Source of the DNA: an uncultured Oscillospiraceae bacterium | GTDB lineage: Bacteria > Bacillota > Clostridia > Oscillospirales > Oscillospiraceae | Length of the DNA: 32,315 nt | NCBI GenBank assembly: GCA_947627285.1 | Contig: CANQVL010000032.1 | Location: 1 to 32,315 of the forward strand | Direction of reading: 5' to 3' | The notes under the pieces: model-generated | Seen by the model: only the letters and a program-made list of their open reading frames with translations | Told to the model about the DNA's origin: nothing | The model's database searches: none | Program-made: the position numbers and the translations under genes | Part shown: positions 841 through 28,668 of the stretch, piece after piece | Layout of the letters: each line of letters begins with the position of its first letter | How positions within the stretch are numbered: position 1 is the stretch's first letter

Positions 841-3800
841 TTATTTGTCCAGGGACAGCTCGCTAAAGCGCATGACCAGCGTTACCATCTCGGCGCGGGT
901 GGCGGTGCCTGACGGGTCCAGAGTTGCGTTGCCCTTGCCCTGGATAAGCCCCGCGGCGACCGCCCACTCCATGGCGTCACGGGCCCAGGGGGAAACCGCG
1001 TTCACGTCGTTGTAAACGGTCAGTCCGGCGCGTTTTTGTACGTCATATCCGAGCTTCTTTGCGTAGTTGAAAAGTATGACCACAAACTGCTCTCTGGTGA
1101 CGGGATCTGACAGGCCAAACGTTCCGTCCCCGCGTCCGTTGACCACGTTGTTTGCCTGAGCCCATGCAATGGCGTCGGAGTACCACTTTCCTTCCTCTAC
1201 GTCGCCAAATCCGCAGGTGTCAGCGTCCGGCTCATAGGCCAGGCGGTAGAGGACGGTGACCACAGAGGCGCGGTCGGTCTTTGCGTCAGGTGAGAAGGTG
1301 CCGGGCGCCGTGCCGCTTATCAGCTCCCGCGCGGAGGCAAAGGCGATGGCGTCAAGCGCCCAGGGGACGGAGGCGGTGTCATTGAAGTTCGAGGCCATAT
1401 CAACCAGCTTGACGGTCATCTCGCCGCTGACATTCAGGACAACGCCGGTCTCGGTCACCACGCTGTCTCTGACTACGGTCTCGGTGCCGTCGGAATTTAC
1501 TACCACCGCGACAGTGCCGGGGGTGACGCCCTTGACCGGGATCTCAAGCCGGGCCGATCCTTCGCCCTCCACCTTCACGGATATTTCCGGGGCCTTGTCG
1601 GAGGAAGCGGAGCCCGGTATCTCCACAGGAGCGGTCAGAACCTTGCCGGTCTGAGCCGCCGCCTCGGGAATCACGATATCCGCCGAGGTGACGGTCCCGC
1701 CCGTCCTGTGCGTCTCGCCTTTTACTCCGTCGGGGCTGACGACGGGGCCGGACTGAGCGGAGCCGCCAACACCGCCGGAGCCGCCGGAACTGTTGGTGAC
1801 GGTGATCACCGCTTCGGCCTCCGCCGCTTCGTACAGCGTCTCGCTCTCATCGGGCGTGAAGACCACCTTGACCGTGTGCTCTCCCAACGCAAGGCCGGTA
1901 AGGGTCGCGACGTTTCCGTCGCTCTCGATCTCGCTGCCGTCCACATAGAAGGTCAGCGTGCCGTCGGGCTCCTCCTCGGATTCCAGCATCGGCTCCTTCT
2001 CAAGCACCGCCGTCACCGTGACGGTACTTCCGAAGGTCGCCGTCGCGGGAACGTCAAGCGTCAGGATGGGCTTCACCGTGCTGGGGATGTACGCGGCATT
2101 TTGGGGGAGGAAGCTTATGCCGTTTAAGTAGAAATTGTGGGGCTGGTAATCACTGTAATCGGTGCCGCTTTCAAAATACCCATTATCCGTATTCGGATTC
2201 ACGGCGCTGAGGAAGAACTGGAGCTGGTATGTCCCGGAGGACGGGATCGTAACGTCAAAGCTGTGCTCGTTCCATGTGGTGTCCATCTTGACCTTCTGGA
2301 CGATAACATCGGTGTTTGCGGACACGTTCTTGACGGTTACCATGATGTACCTCTCCACCTCGGACTCGGCGTAGAAATGGAGCGTATAGGTCCCGGGGTC
2401 CGCCGGGAAATACTGGTTGAGCTGTATGGCCCAGGGGACAGCCGGGTTGCCCCACTCGTCGCCCTCGGCGTGGAGGTAGCGGGCGGAGAGGAAGGAGCTG
2501 TCAAAGTCCAGCGTGCCGCAGTTGTTCTGGATATATGTCTCCCAGCCCTCGCTGCCGTCGGAGAAGCCGCCGTTTATGAGCCGCTCGCCGTTCGCCGGGT
2601 AGATCCACAGCTCCACTGCCGGCGTGTCGGCATACCCCTCGGTCTTGGCGGAGAGTGAATATACGCCGTCGTCGTCAAAAAGATCGGCGTTGAGGACGAG
2701 GTTTTCTCCCTCAAACCTATAGCTATTTGCGCTCAGAAGCTTGCCGTCAAGGTAGAGCTTCGCCGCCTTTGTCCACTCGGTTGTGCCAATAAAGGGGACG
2801 GTAATATCATCCGTCAGCTTATTGTAGTCCTTCGGCAGGAACGCGCCGGGCTGTGTCGGGGCGCCCGCCAGCTTCAAAACCACGTTGTCAAGATACAGGG
2901 TATAGTTTTCATCAGCGCCGCCCACAAGGAACTTGAGGGACAGCGTGGCGTCGGAGCTGAGCTTGAAGGCGTGCTCATGGTGCTGCCATTCGGTGCTAAC
3001 CTCGATCCCGGTGTGCTGGAAAGCGCGGTTATAGCTTGCGTCCTCCAATGCCACGTCGATGACGGCATTGGCAGATGCCTTTATGTCAAAGGATATCACA
3101 TAGCTGTACCCGCCAAGGAGATTGAGCTTGTCGTAGCTGAGCAGCGCGTCGTAGGTGTGATCAGTTTTCTTGCCGGCGACGGCGCCGACCCAGCTCCCAT
3201 GGCCTTCCTCGGTTGTGGATTGGACGGTAAGGTCCGTATTGTACGTCCCCCACCCAAGCTCTTTATGCTCAAAGTCGCCGTTTACCAACGGATAGCAGTC
3301 AAGGCCGGAGTAGTCCACGTTGTTAAATGTGGTGCGTTCAAGGAAAACGTCGTCAAGGGTCGCGCCGGAGGCGAGGGTAAAGGTTATTTTGGCGTTTTTA
3401 TCAGTTACGCCCACGGGCATGATGAACGCGTTGCTGGCGATGGTGCTGAGCGGGTGCTTTTCAAGATATGTGACGCTCCCGTCGGCTGACGTGACCTCCA
3501 CGTATACCGTGCCGGTAGAATCGGCGTTCAACACATATTGGTCGCTCTGTAAAAGCTCGACGCCAAGCTGATACACCGTGGCTTCGCCATCAGCCTTGAA
3601 AACGTGGTTGTAGGCGTTATTTTCCTTCTGCCGGACGACCTGACCGCCCGTGGCGTGCCAATAGGCCAGACGGTCCACGGTGCCAAGCTCGAAGCTGCCG
3701 TTATAGATCCCGTTTCCGTCGTCCAGAGGGGCCTTTTGAACATCATGGTTGATGGTGAGTCCGTCGGCGTGCTCCAGCTTTACATTTGCGAAGTACACCC

Positions 3801-23972: not shown

Positions 23973-26948
23973 ATGCTTAAACTTTCCAATATCACCAAGA
24001 CCTACATAACCGGCGAGCTGCGGCAGCAGGCGTTGGACGGGATCTCCATATCCTTCCGCAAAAATGAGTTCGTGTCGGTGCTGGGGCAGTCCGGCTCAGG
24101 AAAGACCACGCTCCTCAACATAATCGGCGGGCTTGACCAGTACACCTCCGGCGATCTCATAATCAACGGCAAGTCCACAAAGGAGTACAACGACTCGGAC
24201 TGGGACACCTACCGCAACCACTCCGTGGGCTTTGTGTTCCAGAGCTACAACCTCATACCGCACCAGTCGGTGCTGGCGAACGTGGAGCTTGCCCTGACGC
24301 TCTCGGGCGTGTCCAAATCCGAGCGGCGGCGCAGGGCGGTGGAGGCGCTGCGCGCAGTGGGGCTGGAGGAGCACATCTACAAGCGCCCCAACCAGATGTC
24401 CGGCGGGCAGATGCAGAGGGTGTCCATCGCCAGGGCCCTCATAAACAACCCTGACATCCTCCTCGCCGACGAGCCCACGGGCGCGCTGGACTCCGAGACC
24501 TCCATACAGGTGATGGAGCTTTTGAAGGAGATAGCCAAGGACAGGCTTGTAATAATGGTCACCCACAACCCGGAGATAGCGGAGAAGTATTCCACCCGCA
24601 TAGTCCGGCTCCTGGACGGCAAAATCATCGACGACTCCGACCCCTATGAGGACGAGACGGTGGCGCAGGTCCTCACAAAAAAGGAGCAAAAGCGGCAAAA
24701 GAGCGAGAAGAAGAAAAAATCCATGTCCTTCTTCACCGCCCTGAGCCTGTCCCTCAACAACCTGATGACAAAGAAGGGGCGCACCTTCCTCACCTCCTTT
24801 GCCGGCTCCATAGGAATAATCGGCATCGCGCTTATCCTCTCCGTCTCCGCCGGCTTCCAGGCGTACATCGACCAGGTGCAGGAGGACACACTTGCCTCCT
24901 ACCCCATAACCATCGAGGCGGAGAGCGTGGATATGTCCTCCATGCTCCTGTCCTTCATGAACTCCCGCCAGGAGGCGATGGAGGAGGAGCGGGAGCCGGA
25001 CAGGGTCTACTCCGCTACCGTCATGTACGATATGCTCTCCTCCATGATGAACGCCAAGACAAAGACCAACAACCTCACCGCCTTCAAGGAGTTCCTTGAC
25101 GAGGGCGGAAACGGCATAATGGACGTGGCGCGGGTACACTACTCCTACGATTTCAAATTCGACGTGTACACCAGGGACGAGGATGGCAACGTGGTCAAGT
25201 CCGACGTGATGGCGATGATGCAGCAGGCCATGACCGGAATGTTCGGCGGCGACTACTCCTCCTACTTTGACAACATGGGGCAGATGTACGAGCGCATGGA
25301 CGTGTGGAACGAGCTCCTGCCCGAGGCGGACGGCACGGGCGTGGCGGAGTCCACAAAGGAGCAGTACGACGTGCTCTACGGGCGCTGGCCCGAGAATTAC
25401 GACGAGATAGTCATTTTCGTTGACGGCAGGAACGAGATCTCCGACCTCATGCTCTACGCCCTGGGCTTCATATCCTCCGACGACATGAACGAGACGATGA
25501 AGGCGATGATGAGCGGGGAGCCGGTGGAGGCGGAGACCATGAGCTGGAGCTACGAGGAGCTCTGCGACACGGGCTTTAAGTTCATACTGCCCAGCGAATA
25601 TTACCAGTGGGACGCCGCCGCGGGGAAATACGTTGACCTCTCCGCCACCGAGACCGGCATGGAATATCTCTACAACAGCTCCGAGGTGGGCCTGCCCTTG
25701 AAGGTGGTGGGTATAGTCCGGCCCAACGGCGACGACAACGGCGGCGCCGTCTCCGGGCAGATAGGCTACACCGCCGCCCTGACGCAGTACGCCATGGAGG
25801 AGACGGGCAAGCAGGAGATAGTCAAAAAGCAGCTCGCCGACGACACCGTTGACGTTTTCACCGGCCTTCCCTTCAGGACCGCGGAGTACACCGAGCCCGA
25901 GGACGAACAGAAGATTGCGGATTTCAAGGAATACGTCGCCGGCCTTGGCGTTGATGAGCGGGCGGAGCTGTTCGTTGAGATGTCCTCCGTACCCACCGAG
26001 GAATACCTGTCCTCCGCCGTGGAGCAGCAGATGGCGGATCTTGACAGGAAGTCCATAACCGACATGATGATAAGCTCCTACGCCCAGCAAATGGGCGTCA
26101 CGGACACCGCCCAGATAGAGAGCTACTTCGCCCAAATGTCCGACGAGGAGCTTTTCGATATGGCGGAGCAGGGGATACGCCAGTCCGTGAGCCAGATGTA
26201 CGCCCGGCAGGTGGAGGCTCAGCTGGCGCAAATACCGGCGGAGCAGAGGTCCGCGATGATCGACGTGACAGAGTTCACCGACGACCAGTACCTCGCCTTC
26301 TATGACAGCTTCATGCCCCCCACGGTCTCCGACGCAAGCTACGACCAGAACCTGGAGGCGCTGGGCTTCGCCGTCCCCGAGTCGCCCAGCACCGTGGCGC
26401 TGTACGCCGTGACCTTTGAGGACAAGGACATTATCTCCGACCTCATCGCCCAGTACAACGAGACGGTTGACGAGGACGATAAGATAGAGTACACCGACTA
26501 CGTGGCGCTGCTGATGAGCTCCGTCACCACCATAATCAACGCCGTGAGCTACGTGCTCATCGCCTTTGTCGCCATATCCCTGGTGGTCAGCTCCATAATG
26601 ATAGGCATAATCACCTACATCTCCGTGCTGGAGCGCACCAAGGAGATCGGCATACTGCGCGCCATCGGCGCCTCAAAGAGGGACGTGAGCCGCGTGTTCA
26701 ACGCCGAGACGCTCATAGTGGGCTTCGGAGCCGGGGCGATAGGCATAGGCGCGTCGCTTCTCATAATCCTGCCCATAAACCTTGTGCTCCACCGTCTGAC
26801 GGGAATAAACGAGCTCTCCGCCGTCCTCCCCGCGGGAGCCGGGGTGATACTGGTGCTAATATCCATGTTCCTCACCTTCATCGCCGGCCTCGTCCCCTCC
26901 GGCCTCGCGGCAAAGAAGAACCCTGTTGAGGCGCTGAGGACGGAATAA
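23973..26948 (+). CDS. MacB-like ABC transporter with fused ATPase and FtsX-type permease
   Basis: A 991-residue single-chain ABC protein. ATPase at the N-terminus: Walker A GQSGSGKTT (38-46), signature SGGQMQR (143-149), Walker B ILLADEP with Asp166 and Glu167, of the LolD/MacB type. A charged linker rich in Lys (about 235-255) leads to the first membrane helix (about 270-295), then a ~540-residue extracellular region rich in Asp/Glu, Met and Tyr, then three C-terminal helices of an FtsX domain (about 845-985) containing ERTKEIGILRAIGAS. Such type VII transporters do mechanical work on exported peptides, lipoproteins or antimicrobials rather than moving solutes through the membrane. No partner, sensor kinase or regulator is adjacent, so the substrate is unknown. 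The ectodomain is about twice what I expect for MacB. Ribosome binding site is weak (CGGGATG). No terminator seen after the stop; the next promoter begins four bases later. Confidence 0.88.
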   Translation: MLKLSNITKTYITGELRQQALDGISISFRKNEFVSVLGQSGSGKTTLLNIIGGLDQYTSGDLIINGKSTKEYNDSDWDTYRNHSVGFVFQSYNLIPHQSVLANVELALTLSGVSKSERRRRAVEALRAVGLEEHIYKRPNQMSGGQMQRVSIARALINNPDILLADEPTGALDSETSIQVMELLKEIAKDRLVIMVTHNPEIAEKYSTRIVRLLDGKIIDDSDPYEDETVAQVLTKKEQKRQKSEKKKKSMSFFTALSLSLNNLMTKKGRTFLTSFAGSIGIIGIALILSVSAGFQAYIDQVQEDTLASYPITIEAESVDMSSMLLSFMNSRQEAMEEEREPDRVYSATVMYDMLSSMMNAKTKTNNLTAFKEFLDEGGNGIMDVARVHYSYDFKFDVYTRDEDGNVVKSDVMAMMQQAMTGMFGGDYSSYFDNMGQMYERMDVWNELLPEADGTGVAESTKEQYDVLYGRWPENYDEIVIFVDGRNEISDLMLYALGFISSDDMNETMKAMMSGEPVEAETMSWSYEELCDTGFKFILPSEYYQWDAAAGKYVDLSATETGMEYLYNSSEVGLPLKVVGIVRPNGDDNGGAVSGQIGYTAALTQYAMEETGKQEIVKKQLADDTVDVFTGLPFRTAEYTEPEDEQKIADFKEYVAGLGVDERAELFVEMSSVPTEEYLSSAVEQQMADLDRKSITDMMISSYAQQMGVTDTAQIESYFAQMSDEELFDMAEQGIRQSVSQMYARQVEAQLAQIPAEQRSAMIDVTEFTDDQYLAFYDSFMPPTVSDASYDQNLEALGFAVPESPSTVALYAVTFEDKDIISDLIAQYNETVDEDDKIEYTDYVALLMSSVTTIINAVSYVLIAFVAISLVVSSIMIGIITYISVLERTKEIGILRAIGASKRDVSRVFNAETLIVGFGAGAIGIGASLLIILPINLVLHRLTGINELSAVLPAGAGVILVLISMFLTFIAGLVPSGLAAKKNPVEALRTE

Positions 26949-26951
26949 AGC

Positions 26952-26980
26952 TTGACAGTCGCGTAAAAACGTACTATTAT
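26952..26980 (+). promoter_or_regulatory. Strong promoter of the ABC-F leader
   Basis: TTGACA (26952-26957), 17-base spacer, TATTAT (26975-26980). Transcription should start near 26987, giving a leader of about 215 bases before the ABC-F start codon. Confidence 0.88.
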
Positions 26981-27016
26981 ACTATTATATAGTCAACTCG
27001 ATTTGGAGGTGAAAGG

Positions 27017-27037
27017 ATGACTTCTTATCCCGCGTAA
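27017..27037 (+). CDS. Six-residue leader peptide (MTSYPA) of the ABC-F attenuator
   Basis: ATG at 27017 follows GGAGGTGAAAGG, a near-perfect ribosome binding site at seven-base spacing, yet the frame is only MTSYPA before TAA. Such a site on a tiny frame in the leader of an antibiotic-resistance type gene is the usual mark of a regulatory leader peptide. Its Pro-Ala codons (CCC GCG, 27029-27034) are themselves one arm of an RNA hairpin, see the attenuator. Stalling of a drug-bound ribosome here is inferred. Confidence 0.8.
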   Translation: MTSYPA

Positions 27038-27182
27038 CAAAAAAGGCGCTTGCAAGGGGCTAAATGTGCCCAAAGCGCCGTAAGCGGGAAGAATTTCATC
27101 CTATCACTCAAGGGTCATAACGTACCGTAGGGGTATTATGTGCCTTTTCTGAGCCGTGGGAAGCTTCCCGCGGCTCATTTTT
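27029..27182 (+). promoter_or_regulatory. Transcription attenuator with alternative pairings ahead of the ABC-F gene
   Basis: Four segments can be read. Segment 1: CCCGC inside the leader frame (27029-27033). Segment 2: GCGGGAAG (27084-27091). Segment 3: GTGGGAAG (27156-27163). Segment 4: CTTCCCGC (27164-27171). Segments 1 and 2 close a long hairpin that also contains GGCGCTT (27045-27051) with AAGCGCC (27073-27079) and GGGC (27057-27060) with GCCC (27068-27071). Segments 3 and 4 form the terminator stem. Segment 2 is a perfect 8-base complement of segment 4, so if a ribosome stalls on segment 1, segment 2 is freed to pair with 4 and the terminator cannot form. That gives drug-induced read-through. 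Confidence 0.75.
27151..27182 (+). terminator. Attenuator terminator 20 bases before the ABC-F start
   Basis: GAGCCGTGGG (27151-27160) pairs with CCCGCGGCTC (27167-27176), one pair being G-U, and is followed by ATTTTT. Its position between leader peptide and main gene makes it conditional rather than a plain gene-end terminator. Confidence 0.88.
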
Positions 27183-27201
27183 CATTTGAGAGGTGCTTTA
27201 T

Positions 27202-28668
27202 ATGCTTATTGACGTTACGAATTTGACCTTTGCCTACGAGGGCAGCCACGACAACATATTTGAAAACGCCTCCTTCCGCATGGACACGGGCTGGCGTCTG
27301 GGCTTTACCGGCCGCAACGGGCGGGGGAAGACCACCTTCCTCCGGTGCCTCATGGGGGAGCTCCCTTACTCAGGCGCCATAAGCGCGCCGGGGGTGAGGT
27401 TTGAGTATTTCCCCTCAAGGGTGGAGGACCCGGGTCTTCCGACCCTGCGGGCGCTCATGGAGGCGGACCCGGATACGGAGGAGTGGGAGCTGAGACGGGA
27501 GCTTTCAAGGCTCAGGATACCCGAGGACGCCCTTGACCGCCCCTTTGGGACGCTGTCCAACGGCGAGCGGACGCGCTGTTCCCTGGCGGCGCTCTTTTGC
27601 CGGGAGGACGCCTTCCCCCTCATCGACGAGCCCACAAACCACCTGGATATGGAGGGGCGCGAGCTTTTGGGCGAATATCTCTCCCGCAAAAACGGCTTCA
27701 TCCTTGTGAGCCACGACAGGGCGCTCCTGGACAGGTGTACCGACCACACTTTGTCAATTAACTTGACAAATATCGAGGTGACGCGCGGCTCCTTCTCCAC
27801 CTGGTGGGAGAATAAACGCCGGCAGGACGACTGGGAGCGGGCGGAGAACGAAAAGCTCCGGGGCGAGATAACCCGCCTCACCAAAACAGCGCGGGAGAAA
27901 TCTGTATGGTCAGACAGGGTGGAGGCGACAAAAATCGGCTTCGGCCCCTGTGACCGGGGCGCCATCGGTCACAAAGCCGCCAAGATGATGAAGCGCTCCA
28001 AGGCCATCGAGGAGCGCCGGGAGCGGGCCGTGGAGGACAAGTCCAGGCTCCTGCACAACATCGAGAGGGACGAGGAGCTGAAGCTCTCGCCCCTCACCCA
28101 CAGGGCGGCGAGGCTCGTCATATTGAAGGACGTCGCCATAGATTTTGGCGGCAGGAGCGTCCTTGAGGGCGTGAGCCTGGAGATAAAGCCGGGGGACCGC
28201 CTCGCCCTGCGGGGGCCCAACGGCAGCGGCAAAACAAGCCTCCTTCGCCTCATTTTGGGCGAGGACGTGCCCCATACAGGCGAGGTCCGCGTCGCCTCCA
28301 ATACCGTAATCTCCTACGTCAGCCAGGACGTGTCCGGGCTTTCCGGCGGCCTGCGCGCCTACGCGGAGAGGTACGGCGTGGACAGGAGCGTTTTCCAGTC
28401 GATCCTGCGTAAGCTCGGCTTTGAGCGCGTACAGTTTGAAAAGCCCCTGGAGGATTGGTCGATGGGCCAGAAAAAGAAGCTCCTCTTGGCGCGCAGTCTG
28501 TGCGAGAGGGCGCACCTTTACATCTGGGACGAGCCTCTCAATTACGTGGACGTGATCTCGCGTATGCGGATTGAGTCGCTTTTAAAGGAATTTCCGCCCA
28601 CCATGCTCTTTGTGGAGCACGACAGGGCCTTCACCGACGCCATAGCAACCGGCGAGGTGAAGCTTTAG
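27202..28668 (+). CDS. Lsa-like ABC-F ribosomal protection protein
   Basis: A 488-residue protein with two ABC ATPase domains and no membrane segment. Domain 1: Walker A GRNGRGKTT (37-45), signature LSNGE (118-122), FPLIDEPTNHLD with Asp142 and Glu143. Domain 2: Walker A GPNGSGKTS (338-346), signature SMGQ (420-423), LYIWDEPLNYVD with Asp443 and Glu444. The charged interdomain linker (about 205-290) carries the ribosome-reaching tip that in this family displaces bound drug. The SMGQ signature and WDEPLNY wording are typical of the Lsa group, whose members protect against lincosamides, streptogramin A and pleuromutilins; the exact spectrum is inferred. I start at the ATG at 27202 (GAGAGG eight bases upstream) instead of the GTG at 27193, which overlaps that site. 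Expression is probably drug-inducible through the upstream attenuator. Confidence 0.9.
   Translation: MLIDVTNLTFAYEGSHDNIFENASFRMDTGWRLGFTGRNGRGKTTFLRCLMGELPYSGAISAPGVRFEYFPSRVEDPGLPTLRALMEADPDTEEWELRRELSRLRIPEDALDRPFGTLSNGERTRCSLAALFCREDAFPLIDEPTNHLDMEGRELLGEYLSRKNGFILVSHDRALLDRCTDHTLSINLTNIEVTRGSFSTWWENKRRQDDWERAENEKLRGEITRLTKTAREKSVWSDRVEATKIGFGPCDRGAIGHKAAKMMKRSKAIEERRERAVEDKSRLLHNIERDEELKLSPLTHRAARLVILKDVAIDFGGRSVLEGVSLEIKPGDRLALRGPNGSGKTSLLRLILGEDVPHTGEVRVASNTVISYVSQDVSGLSGGLRAYAERYGVDRSVFQSILRKLGFERVQFEKPLEDWSMGQKKKLLLARSLCERAHLYIWDEPLNYVDVISRMRIESLLKEFPPTMLFVEHDRAFTDAIATGEVKL

Follow-up and report, generated by a model that had tools for sequence, protein, structure and literature searches.

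The Lsa-like ABC-F gene at 27202..28668 of the window, by which we mean the whole 32,315-nucleotide stretch of DNA analysed from an uncultured Oscillospiraceae bacterium, raises the question of whether its transcription is set by a ribosome on a short upstream reading frame and, if so, what that ribosome senses. An earlier note on this DNA had proposed a leader-controlled transcription attenuator with the logic of trp-type systems, answering to a ribosome stalled by antibiotic on Tyr-Pro-Ala codons. The core of that interpretation stood: we put at about 0.86 the probability that a ribosome-mediated transcription attenuator controls the gene. The codon specificity did not stand, and the topology had to be modified to one in which segment 2 is captured by segment 4.

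The leader and its gene

The 488-residue product of the gene (+ strand) scores 635.9 bits against the NCBIfam profile NF000167 (Lsa), below the curated cut-off of 750, and is therefore called Lsa-like; against NF000355 (ribosomal protection-like ABC-F) it reaches 445.1 bits, above the cut-off of 380. On the same strand, a large ABC ATPase/FtsX-permease fusion (23973-26948) leaves 3 bases between its end and the −35 box of the attenuator's promoter. This promoter (26952..26980, +) is of the sigma-70/A type and agrees with the consensus at 11 of 12 positions (TTGACA at 26952-26957, a spacer of 17, TATTAT at 26975-26980); it is the only TTGACA-N16-18-TATWAT site in the window, against 0.01 expected. 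The remaining elements follow on the + strand. A Shine-Dalgarno sequence, GGAGGTGA (27005..27012, read directly), precedes a frame of six codons and TAA encoding MTSYPA (27017..27037, ATG at 27017), which contains the core of segment 1, TCCCGC (27028..27033, or +12 to +17 of the leader; UCYYGC as a family motif). Segment 2, GCGGGAAG (27084..27091), can pair with these leader bases (TCCCGC:GCGGGA) as an anti-antiterminator, or with its exact complement, segment 4, CTTCCCGC (27164-27171), as an antiterminator. Segment 3, GTGGGAAG (27156-27163), almost repeats segment 2 and belongs to the left arm of an intrinsic terminator (27150..27182), in which a stem of 12 pairs with a 4-base loop (27150-27177) runs into the U tract (TTTTT, 27178-27182) ahead of the gene's ATG at 27202. 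Two of the eight 2:4 pairs use bases of the terminator loop, and the stem does not include the ribosome site of the gene itself (27188-27195). On direct inspection, the promoter, the ribosome site before the MTSYPA frame, the T-tailed terminator, both complementarities of segment 2 and its likeness to the terminator left arm were all present as originally described.

Folding showed the 1:2 helix to be longer than first noted, in that TCATCCTATCACT (27096..27108) pairs with the start codon (GGATGA:TCATCC) and, through 27104-27108, with the GGTGA of the leader Shine-Dalgarno sequence (GGTGA:TCACT). Because the helix includes both, the completed hairpin would close the leader's own ribosome site. 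The loop of the 1:2 helix holds a further hairpin (27045..27079) whose GGCGC/GCGCC arms are invariant in the 17 rows from the same genus, 15 of which also have GGAGGTG at the leader ribosome site. Another hairpin predicted by folding (27110..27147) is variable and may serve as a pause hairpin.

Taken alone, the window supports these structures unevenly. The RNA from 26987 to 27201 folds at −89.4 kcal/mol (z = −6.6), a value equalled by none of 200 shuffles, and by duplex energies the 1:2 pairing exceeds shuffled sequences (p 0.01). The 2:4 pairing in the window alone does not (p 0.14), and its support therefore rests on comparative data. One terminator-like site was found between 26900 and 27260; since shuffles give 0.6 on average, the presence of a terminator is by itself no proof of attenuation.

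Related leaders in other genomes

The comparison began from 42 full-length Lsa-like genes with their upstream DNA, drawn from 99 genomes that include the window's own; a partial second copy in one genome (G094, L045) was excluded. A leader frame with a ribosome site was chosen by script or by eye at 38 of the 42 loci, including an uncertain MKNR frame (L031) and one with a TTG start (L041). Thirty-three leaders, the window's among them, were aligned with MAFFT (alignment A2), and the covariance model R1 was built from this alignment, which omits L031, L038, L041, L043 and L044 as well as the loci for which no leader frame was chosen (L013, L028, L034 and L040). An exact-word search for the three repeats had proved too strict, with most loci looking chance-like, and was replaced by duplex energies, alignments and the covariance model. 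The terminator finder detected no hairpin for L014 and picked wrong ones for L007 and L015, and in the duplex-energy analysis the hairpins for L044 and L031 were wrong and their values were discounted. The overlap of best partner sites (35/38) was discarded as uninformative: because segments 1 and 4 are alike, shuffled interiors often overlap too.

R1 matches 38 of the 42 loci at E ≤ 2.7e-5; 33 of these had trained it, and five of the nine others matched, with no match at L028, L031, L034 or L040. One same-genus locus matches in two separated halves (L013:3011-3101 and 3314-3460, − strand), as if split by an insertion. Beyond this set, matches were found in 84 of 394 genomes and 57 of 168 genera sampled across the order (E ≤ 1e-3), in 35 of 391 genomes and 26 of 222 genera across the class (E ≤ 1e-4), and in 25 of 398 genomes and 20 of 267 genera across the phylum (E ≤ 1e-4), the three samples overlapping in some genomes. 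The gene behind the match is overwhelmingly Lsa-like: this holds for 63 of the 67 order matches at E < 1e-5 (counting L057, whose contig holds only the first 51 residues of the gene), for 26 of 27 class loci that were fetched (three from order genomes already counted) and for 16 of 18 phylum loci. Of the weak order matches (E 1.6e-5 to 8.8e-4), 20 loci were fetched; an Lsa-like gene is present at 8, and the remainder look like chance.

The exceptions are varied. The other four order matches comprise a leader and terminator kept before a decayed Lsa-like remnant (L095, near 441-596), a match that runs off the contig end (L105), an orphan with no ABC-F gene downstream and no terminator in the alignment (L110), and a family attenuator that precedes an MsbA-like ABC exporter in place of an ABC-F gene (L065:1501-1716 and L215:4272-5987, both −), either recruited there or left over after loss of an Lsa gene. 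In the remaining class locus (L236:1501-1677, −), the attenuator stands before an ABC-F gene nearer Msr/CplR than Lsa, with 28% identity to the window protein. At two phylum loci (L253:1735-1971, and L256 near 1748, judged by eye), a leader and terminator precede a truncated Lsa-like start.

A scan of genome contigs with general ABC patterns yielded 80 loci, nine of them Lsa-like. Four of the nine (L137-L140, in MAGs labelled Clostridiaceae, Lachnospiraceae, Eubacterium and Ruminococcus) have a strong R1 match and two (L142 and L143) only weak ones, while R1 found none at L135, L141 or L136, the last being a sequence cut 28 bases before the gene. The distant Lsa-like genes at L142 (near 1660-1800) and L143 (near 2170-2310) have MRK/MKK leaders that lie, as judged by eye, inside a hairpin ending in a T run, a layout that seems simpler. 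The Lsa-like genes of L136:1-1485 (Merdibacter massiliensis, Erysipelotrichia) and L023 (G094, from the window's order) share 100% identity across 1485 bases, which reflects either recent transfer or a contaminated assembly. The 71 loci of other ABC-F proteins gave no R1 match better than E 0.57. Rfam 15 contains no family that matches the window at gathering scores or the region 26940-27230 at E up to 5. The window's leader, which helped to train R1, has the segments 1-4, the UCYYGC core and the Lsa-like gene behind that characterize this RNA family.

Base pairing across the family

Covariation was examined in A2 and in a larger alignment, A4, for which 100 loci were aligned to R1 and 99 leaders kept, L044 being lost at the cut. 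R1 itself does not include the 2:4 helix. In A2, 2:4 cells were 96.2% paired with 32 double-change cells, and terminator cells 96.0% paired with 39, levels reached in none of 500 shuffles. In A4, 93.1% of 2:4 cells were paired against 86.1% in shuffles, and 92 cells showed double changes against 34.7 (0/500 for both); sliding the helix by one to three columns lowered pairing to 45-53%. The terminator was 95.1% paired in A4. The most telling result is the covariation between segment 2 and the terminator-loop bases, which were 87.1% paired in A4 against 77.9% in shuffles, with 35 against 11.4 double-change cells (0/500), because these bases lie outside the 12-pair terminator stem of R1 and the terminator explains them at best partly, some individual terminators extending into them. 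Counts of 2:4 pairs changed on both sides did not exceed shuffles (28/500 in A2, 45/500 in A4 and 78/500 for the loop part), nor did further 2:4 pair types in A2 (457/500), and in all of these comparisons the shuffles leave relatedness among leaders in place.

The 1:2 core, recounted by motif, was 95.4% paired against 91.5% in shuffles (shuffled maximum 93.1%) over 92 of the 99 rows, four rows without the motif and three gapped rows being omitted; picking by motif lifts observed and shuffled values alike. The helices with the start codon and the Shine-Dalgarno sequence were 86.0% and 79.5% paired over the 99 leaders and contain double changes, the alignment having been fitted to them. In A4 the helices in the middle of the 1:2 hairpin, as modelled, pair poorly (61.6%, 41.5% and 62.5%), partly through misalignment. 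The figure of 62.5%, for helix 1:2, is an undercount, because in A2 segment 1 of the window's genus is offset by one base from that of most other genera, the motif starting at +12 in that genus and +13 elsewhere. The four segments change together across loci: the window's genus has the quartet TCTCGC/GCGGGA/GTGGGA/TCCCGC, and elsewhere it reads TCTTGC/GCAAGA/GCAAGA/TCTTGC or TCCTGC/GCAGGA/GCAGGA/TCCTGC. The comparative search that the earlier note had suggested upstream of related ABC-F genes thus found segments 1, 2 and 4 to covary, and both the leader frame and the 2:4 complementarity, whose loss in homologous loci was to count against attenuation, proved to be conserved.

Leader frame and predicted switch

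A start codon and an in-frame stop within nine codons occur in 98 of the 99 aligned leaders, against 17 and 30 for the other frames, a count biased upward because starts were chosen requiring a stop; all 98 have a ribosome-site match of at least 4 bases. The peptides themselves differ, relatives encoding MTSYLA, MRILIA, MNFYLA, MINFSCK, MRNFSC, MRK, MR and MK. Among these 98 leaders, 67 have the UCYYGC motif beginning at +13, 14 at +12 and four at +14, and 13 have no exact match. All 14 with the motif at +12 belong to the window's genus and read it as Leu-Ala or Pro-Ala, whereas in-frame translation gives Ser-Cys in 65 of the 98 and Ser-Arg in one, and at five loci the frame stops before the motif (L224 MK, L089 MR, L225 MRN, L241 MKL and L043 MRK). 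Because it is read in different frames and left untranslated in five loci, the leader element is conserved as RNA and not as peptide, and a stall specific to Tyr-Pro-Ala codons found no support. Conservation at the RNA level fits an arrest of ribosomes by drug at the start codon. In vmlR, excerpts of the published study place a 30S toeprint 16 nt after the start (PMC9226507), and by analogy the motif, at +12 to +19, would sit at the front edge of an initiating ribosome.

We folded leaders either free or with positions −15 to +16 masked as a stand-in for the ribosome, using 97 of the 99 rows (two were dropped for gaps). In the free window leader, the probability was 1.00 for the anti-antiterminator and, from 27173 onward, 0.98 for the terminator. 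Masking the leader favoured the 2:4 antiterminator for exposed RNA ending at 27168-27175 and the terminator for ends at 27176 and beyond. RNA ending near 27170 is what is exposed when polymerase stands on the U tract. At full length and with the leader masked, the terminator was 4.7 kcal/mol better than the antiterminator (−61.5 against −56.8), and the switch must therefore be kinetic. Across the family, terminator probability exceeded 0.5 in 97 of 97 free full-length leaders, and in 84 of 97 the antiterminator emerged only under masking (2:4 probability <0.2 free and >0.5 masked). The remaining 13 failed this strict test; one of them, L224, favours 2:4 even when free. On a more permissive measure, which counts a gain above 0.4 in the pairing of segment 4 with any of the interior, 91 of 97 leaders switched, against 5 of 194 shuffled interiors. 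A short leader frame with a ribosome site, a terminator between leader and gene and a predicted antiterminator exclusive of it, the computational hallmarks of an attenuator, are thus all found.

The leader of lsa(E)

The family reaches the mobile gene lsa(E), whose leader (L218, OP662530.1) matches R1 with 65.4 bits (E 2.4e-14) and encodes MYNFSC. Its predicted switch is as in the window, with 2:4 probabilities of 0.01 free and 1.00 masked, and under masking the antiterminator stays preferred at the last RNA ends tested; it differs in having about 150 bases between terminator and gene. Among 72,556 plasmid records, 110 contain the lsa(E) leader DNA (Enterococcus 105, Listeria 3, Lysinibacillus 1 and Staphylococcus 1), 102 of these with query coverage of 80% or more. 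A locus from the phylum sample (L262) encodes a protein 95% identical to that of lsa(E) over 450 residues behind a leader 95% identical over 253 bases, and a Paenibacillus urinalis plasmid gene also has a family leader (R1 42.7 bits). Among the literature matches listed (titles, starts of abstracts and some passages, with most subscription journals outside the coverage), we found no account of lsa(E) regulation; in the excerpts of texts that name lsaE together with leader peptides, the peptides mentioned belong to erm genes (PMC11945199, PMC11083093).

Discussion

We propose that the leader works as follows. When drug is absent, ribosomes would complete the six-codon frame fast, and the leader RNA would pair with segment 2 in the anti-antiterminator, which would also shut the ribosome site of the leader itself; segments 3 and 4 would then form the terminator, and transcription would end at about 27182. 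Early block of the peptidyl transferase centre by a drug, expected to be a pleuromutilin, lincosamide or streptogramin A, would hold the ribosome on the leader start codon or immediately beyond it, with its footprint covering segment 1, so that segment 2 would remain free. On leaving polymerase, segment 4 would be captured by segment 2 before the terminator base becomes available, and polymerase would therefore read through.

The two likelier rivals of this scheme concern what is sensed and what is controlled. If the gene's own ribosome site were freed by the switch, translation attenuation could matter as much as termination, as described for vmlR and cplR, which combine both modes according to excerpts of the published work (PMC10201436, PMC9226507). 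We consider this unlikely here, since the ribosome site lies outside the terminator stem and the spacing between the end of the stem and the point where the gene match begins ranges over 18-62 bases among the 36 of 38 loci counted (L031 and L044, with wrong hairpins, omitted), besides the still greater distance in lsa(E). Arrest by the nascent peptide, as in macrolide-type leaders, would make Tyr-Pro-Ala here and Ser-Cys elsewhere the sensor, and it draws some appeal from the recurrence of Phe/Ile-Ser-Cys and from the reading of the motif as Ser-Cys before the stop in most leaders outside the window's genus, so that the peptide may make some contribution. Such arrest is distinctly unlikely, given that the 14 same-genus leaders read the element one frame off, that the five shortest-framed loci named above stop ahead of it, and that the pairing of the element with segment 2 alone can account for its conservation.

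A ligand-binding riboswitch or a protein-bound leader in which the small frame is incidental would be compatible with a long structured leader that has a terminator and an antiterminator, but we regard it as very improbable, because the start, early stop and ribosome site are so widely kept, the inner loop varies in length and sequence, and no Rfam match appeared even at E 5. Scarcely credible is a constitutive terminator accompanied by chance complementarity and no regulation; the window-only figures, p 0.14 for 2:4 and one terminator-like site against 0.6, would allow it, but the covariation and switch tests across about 100 leaders speak against it. The ribosome-mediated attenuator thus remains the reading that we prefer.

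The topology of this attenuator sets it apart from the classical case. It shares with trp-type attenuators four segments, a leader frame and alternative hairpins. The trp antiterminator is formed by segments 2 and 3. Here the antiterminator is 2:4, with segment 2 resembling segment 3 and segment 1 resembling segment 4, so the trp-type logic originally suggested does not hold in that it is the terminator 3′ arm that is taken.

The general mechanism is already known, because ribosome-controlled leaders have been described for the ABC-F genes vmlR, cplR, vgaL, vgaA, lmrC and msrD (PMC9226507, PMC10201436, PMC12421871, PMC10219788 and PMC10314930), and those of coelicolor ABC-F genes are a further precedent (PMC12421871). 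The nearest likeness is to vmlR of Bacillus subtilis, in which, by the excerpts of PMC9226507, a short uORF (MIN) lies at a 5′ hairpin that acts as anti-antiterminator, an intrinsic terminator precedes the ABC-F gene, and the signal is a drug-arrested initiating ribosome, as we infer for the window's leader. The two types differ in the arm that is captured. The comparison is with a leader that precedes an ABC-F gene in Bacillus tequilensis (L149) and whose MIN frame led us to class it as vmlR-like. Its segment 2, AGGATTAG, favours the 5′ arm of the terminator (−8.7 kcal/mol) and hardly binds the 3′ arm (−0.9 kcal/mol), whereas the window's antiterminator takes the 3′ arm (2:4, not 2:3) and is in this respect not of the vmlR type; R1 finds no match in L149 at E up to 1.

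The leaders of cplR, a clostridial ABC-F gene of Clostridioides difficile, and of VgaL/Lmo0919 are similar in having a very short uORF (MR[I/M]) and a terminator, and such leaders are induced by retapamulin or lincomycin, as given in excerpts of PMC10201436. The cplR system differs in that the ribosome site of the gene is sequestered by the terminator stem, and what is reported there as essential is stalling on the leader and not premature termination (PMC10201436); cplR also belongs to another ABC-F subfamily and is set beside the window's leader by description, not by leader sequence. An MRK leader, comparable to the cplR-type MR[I/M], occurs at two Lsa-like loci (L038 and L043), and an Lsa-like gene in a Subdoligranulum variabile record (L221, near 1230) has an MRI leader, the frame reported for cplR in those excerpts (PMC10201436). 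Within the Lsa family, lsa(A) of Enterococcus faecalis also has a short uORF, with the consensus MAGN in the excerpts of PMC10201436; our E. faecalis-derived Lsa-type gene (L220), 41% identical to the window protein, has a MAGN frame upstream but no R1 match at E up to 10. The view that the leader had not been described before held for Rfam 15 and for the literature matches listed (again titles, starts of abstracts and some passages, most subscription journals lying outside the coverage). What distinguishes it from known leaders is therefore twofold, capture of the terminator 3′ arm, as against the vmlR-like L149, and an RNA without an Rfam match.

On balance, we favour the broader view that these leaders form an unnamed, phylum-wide RNA family that probably senses antibiotics blocking the ribosome at an early stage through the footprint at the start codon, independently of the peptide, by last-moment capture of the terminator 3′ arm, and that it serves many Lsa-like genes of the Bacillota and has moved with lsa(E) onto plasmids, those of Enterococcus among others, and into a Streptococcus suis phage record, making that gene drug-inducible. 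The retention of an RNA element across different reading frames is demonstrated by the leaders compared here, and some 100 natural variants, including leaders of two and three codons, make the logic of a start-codon footprint directly testable. Judged by comparative tests of sequence, the attenuator appears to be a conserved one, for which the kind of mechanism first suggested was right and the codon detail wrong, and its practical weight would come through lsa(E). If the predicted switch works, carriage of lsa(E) would not equal constant expression, and the choice of drug could affect whether the gene is switched on.
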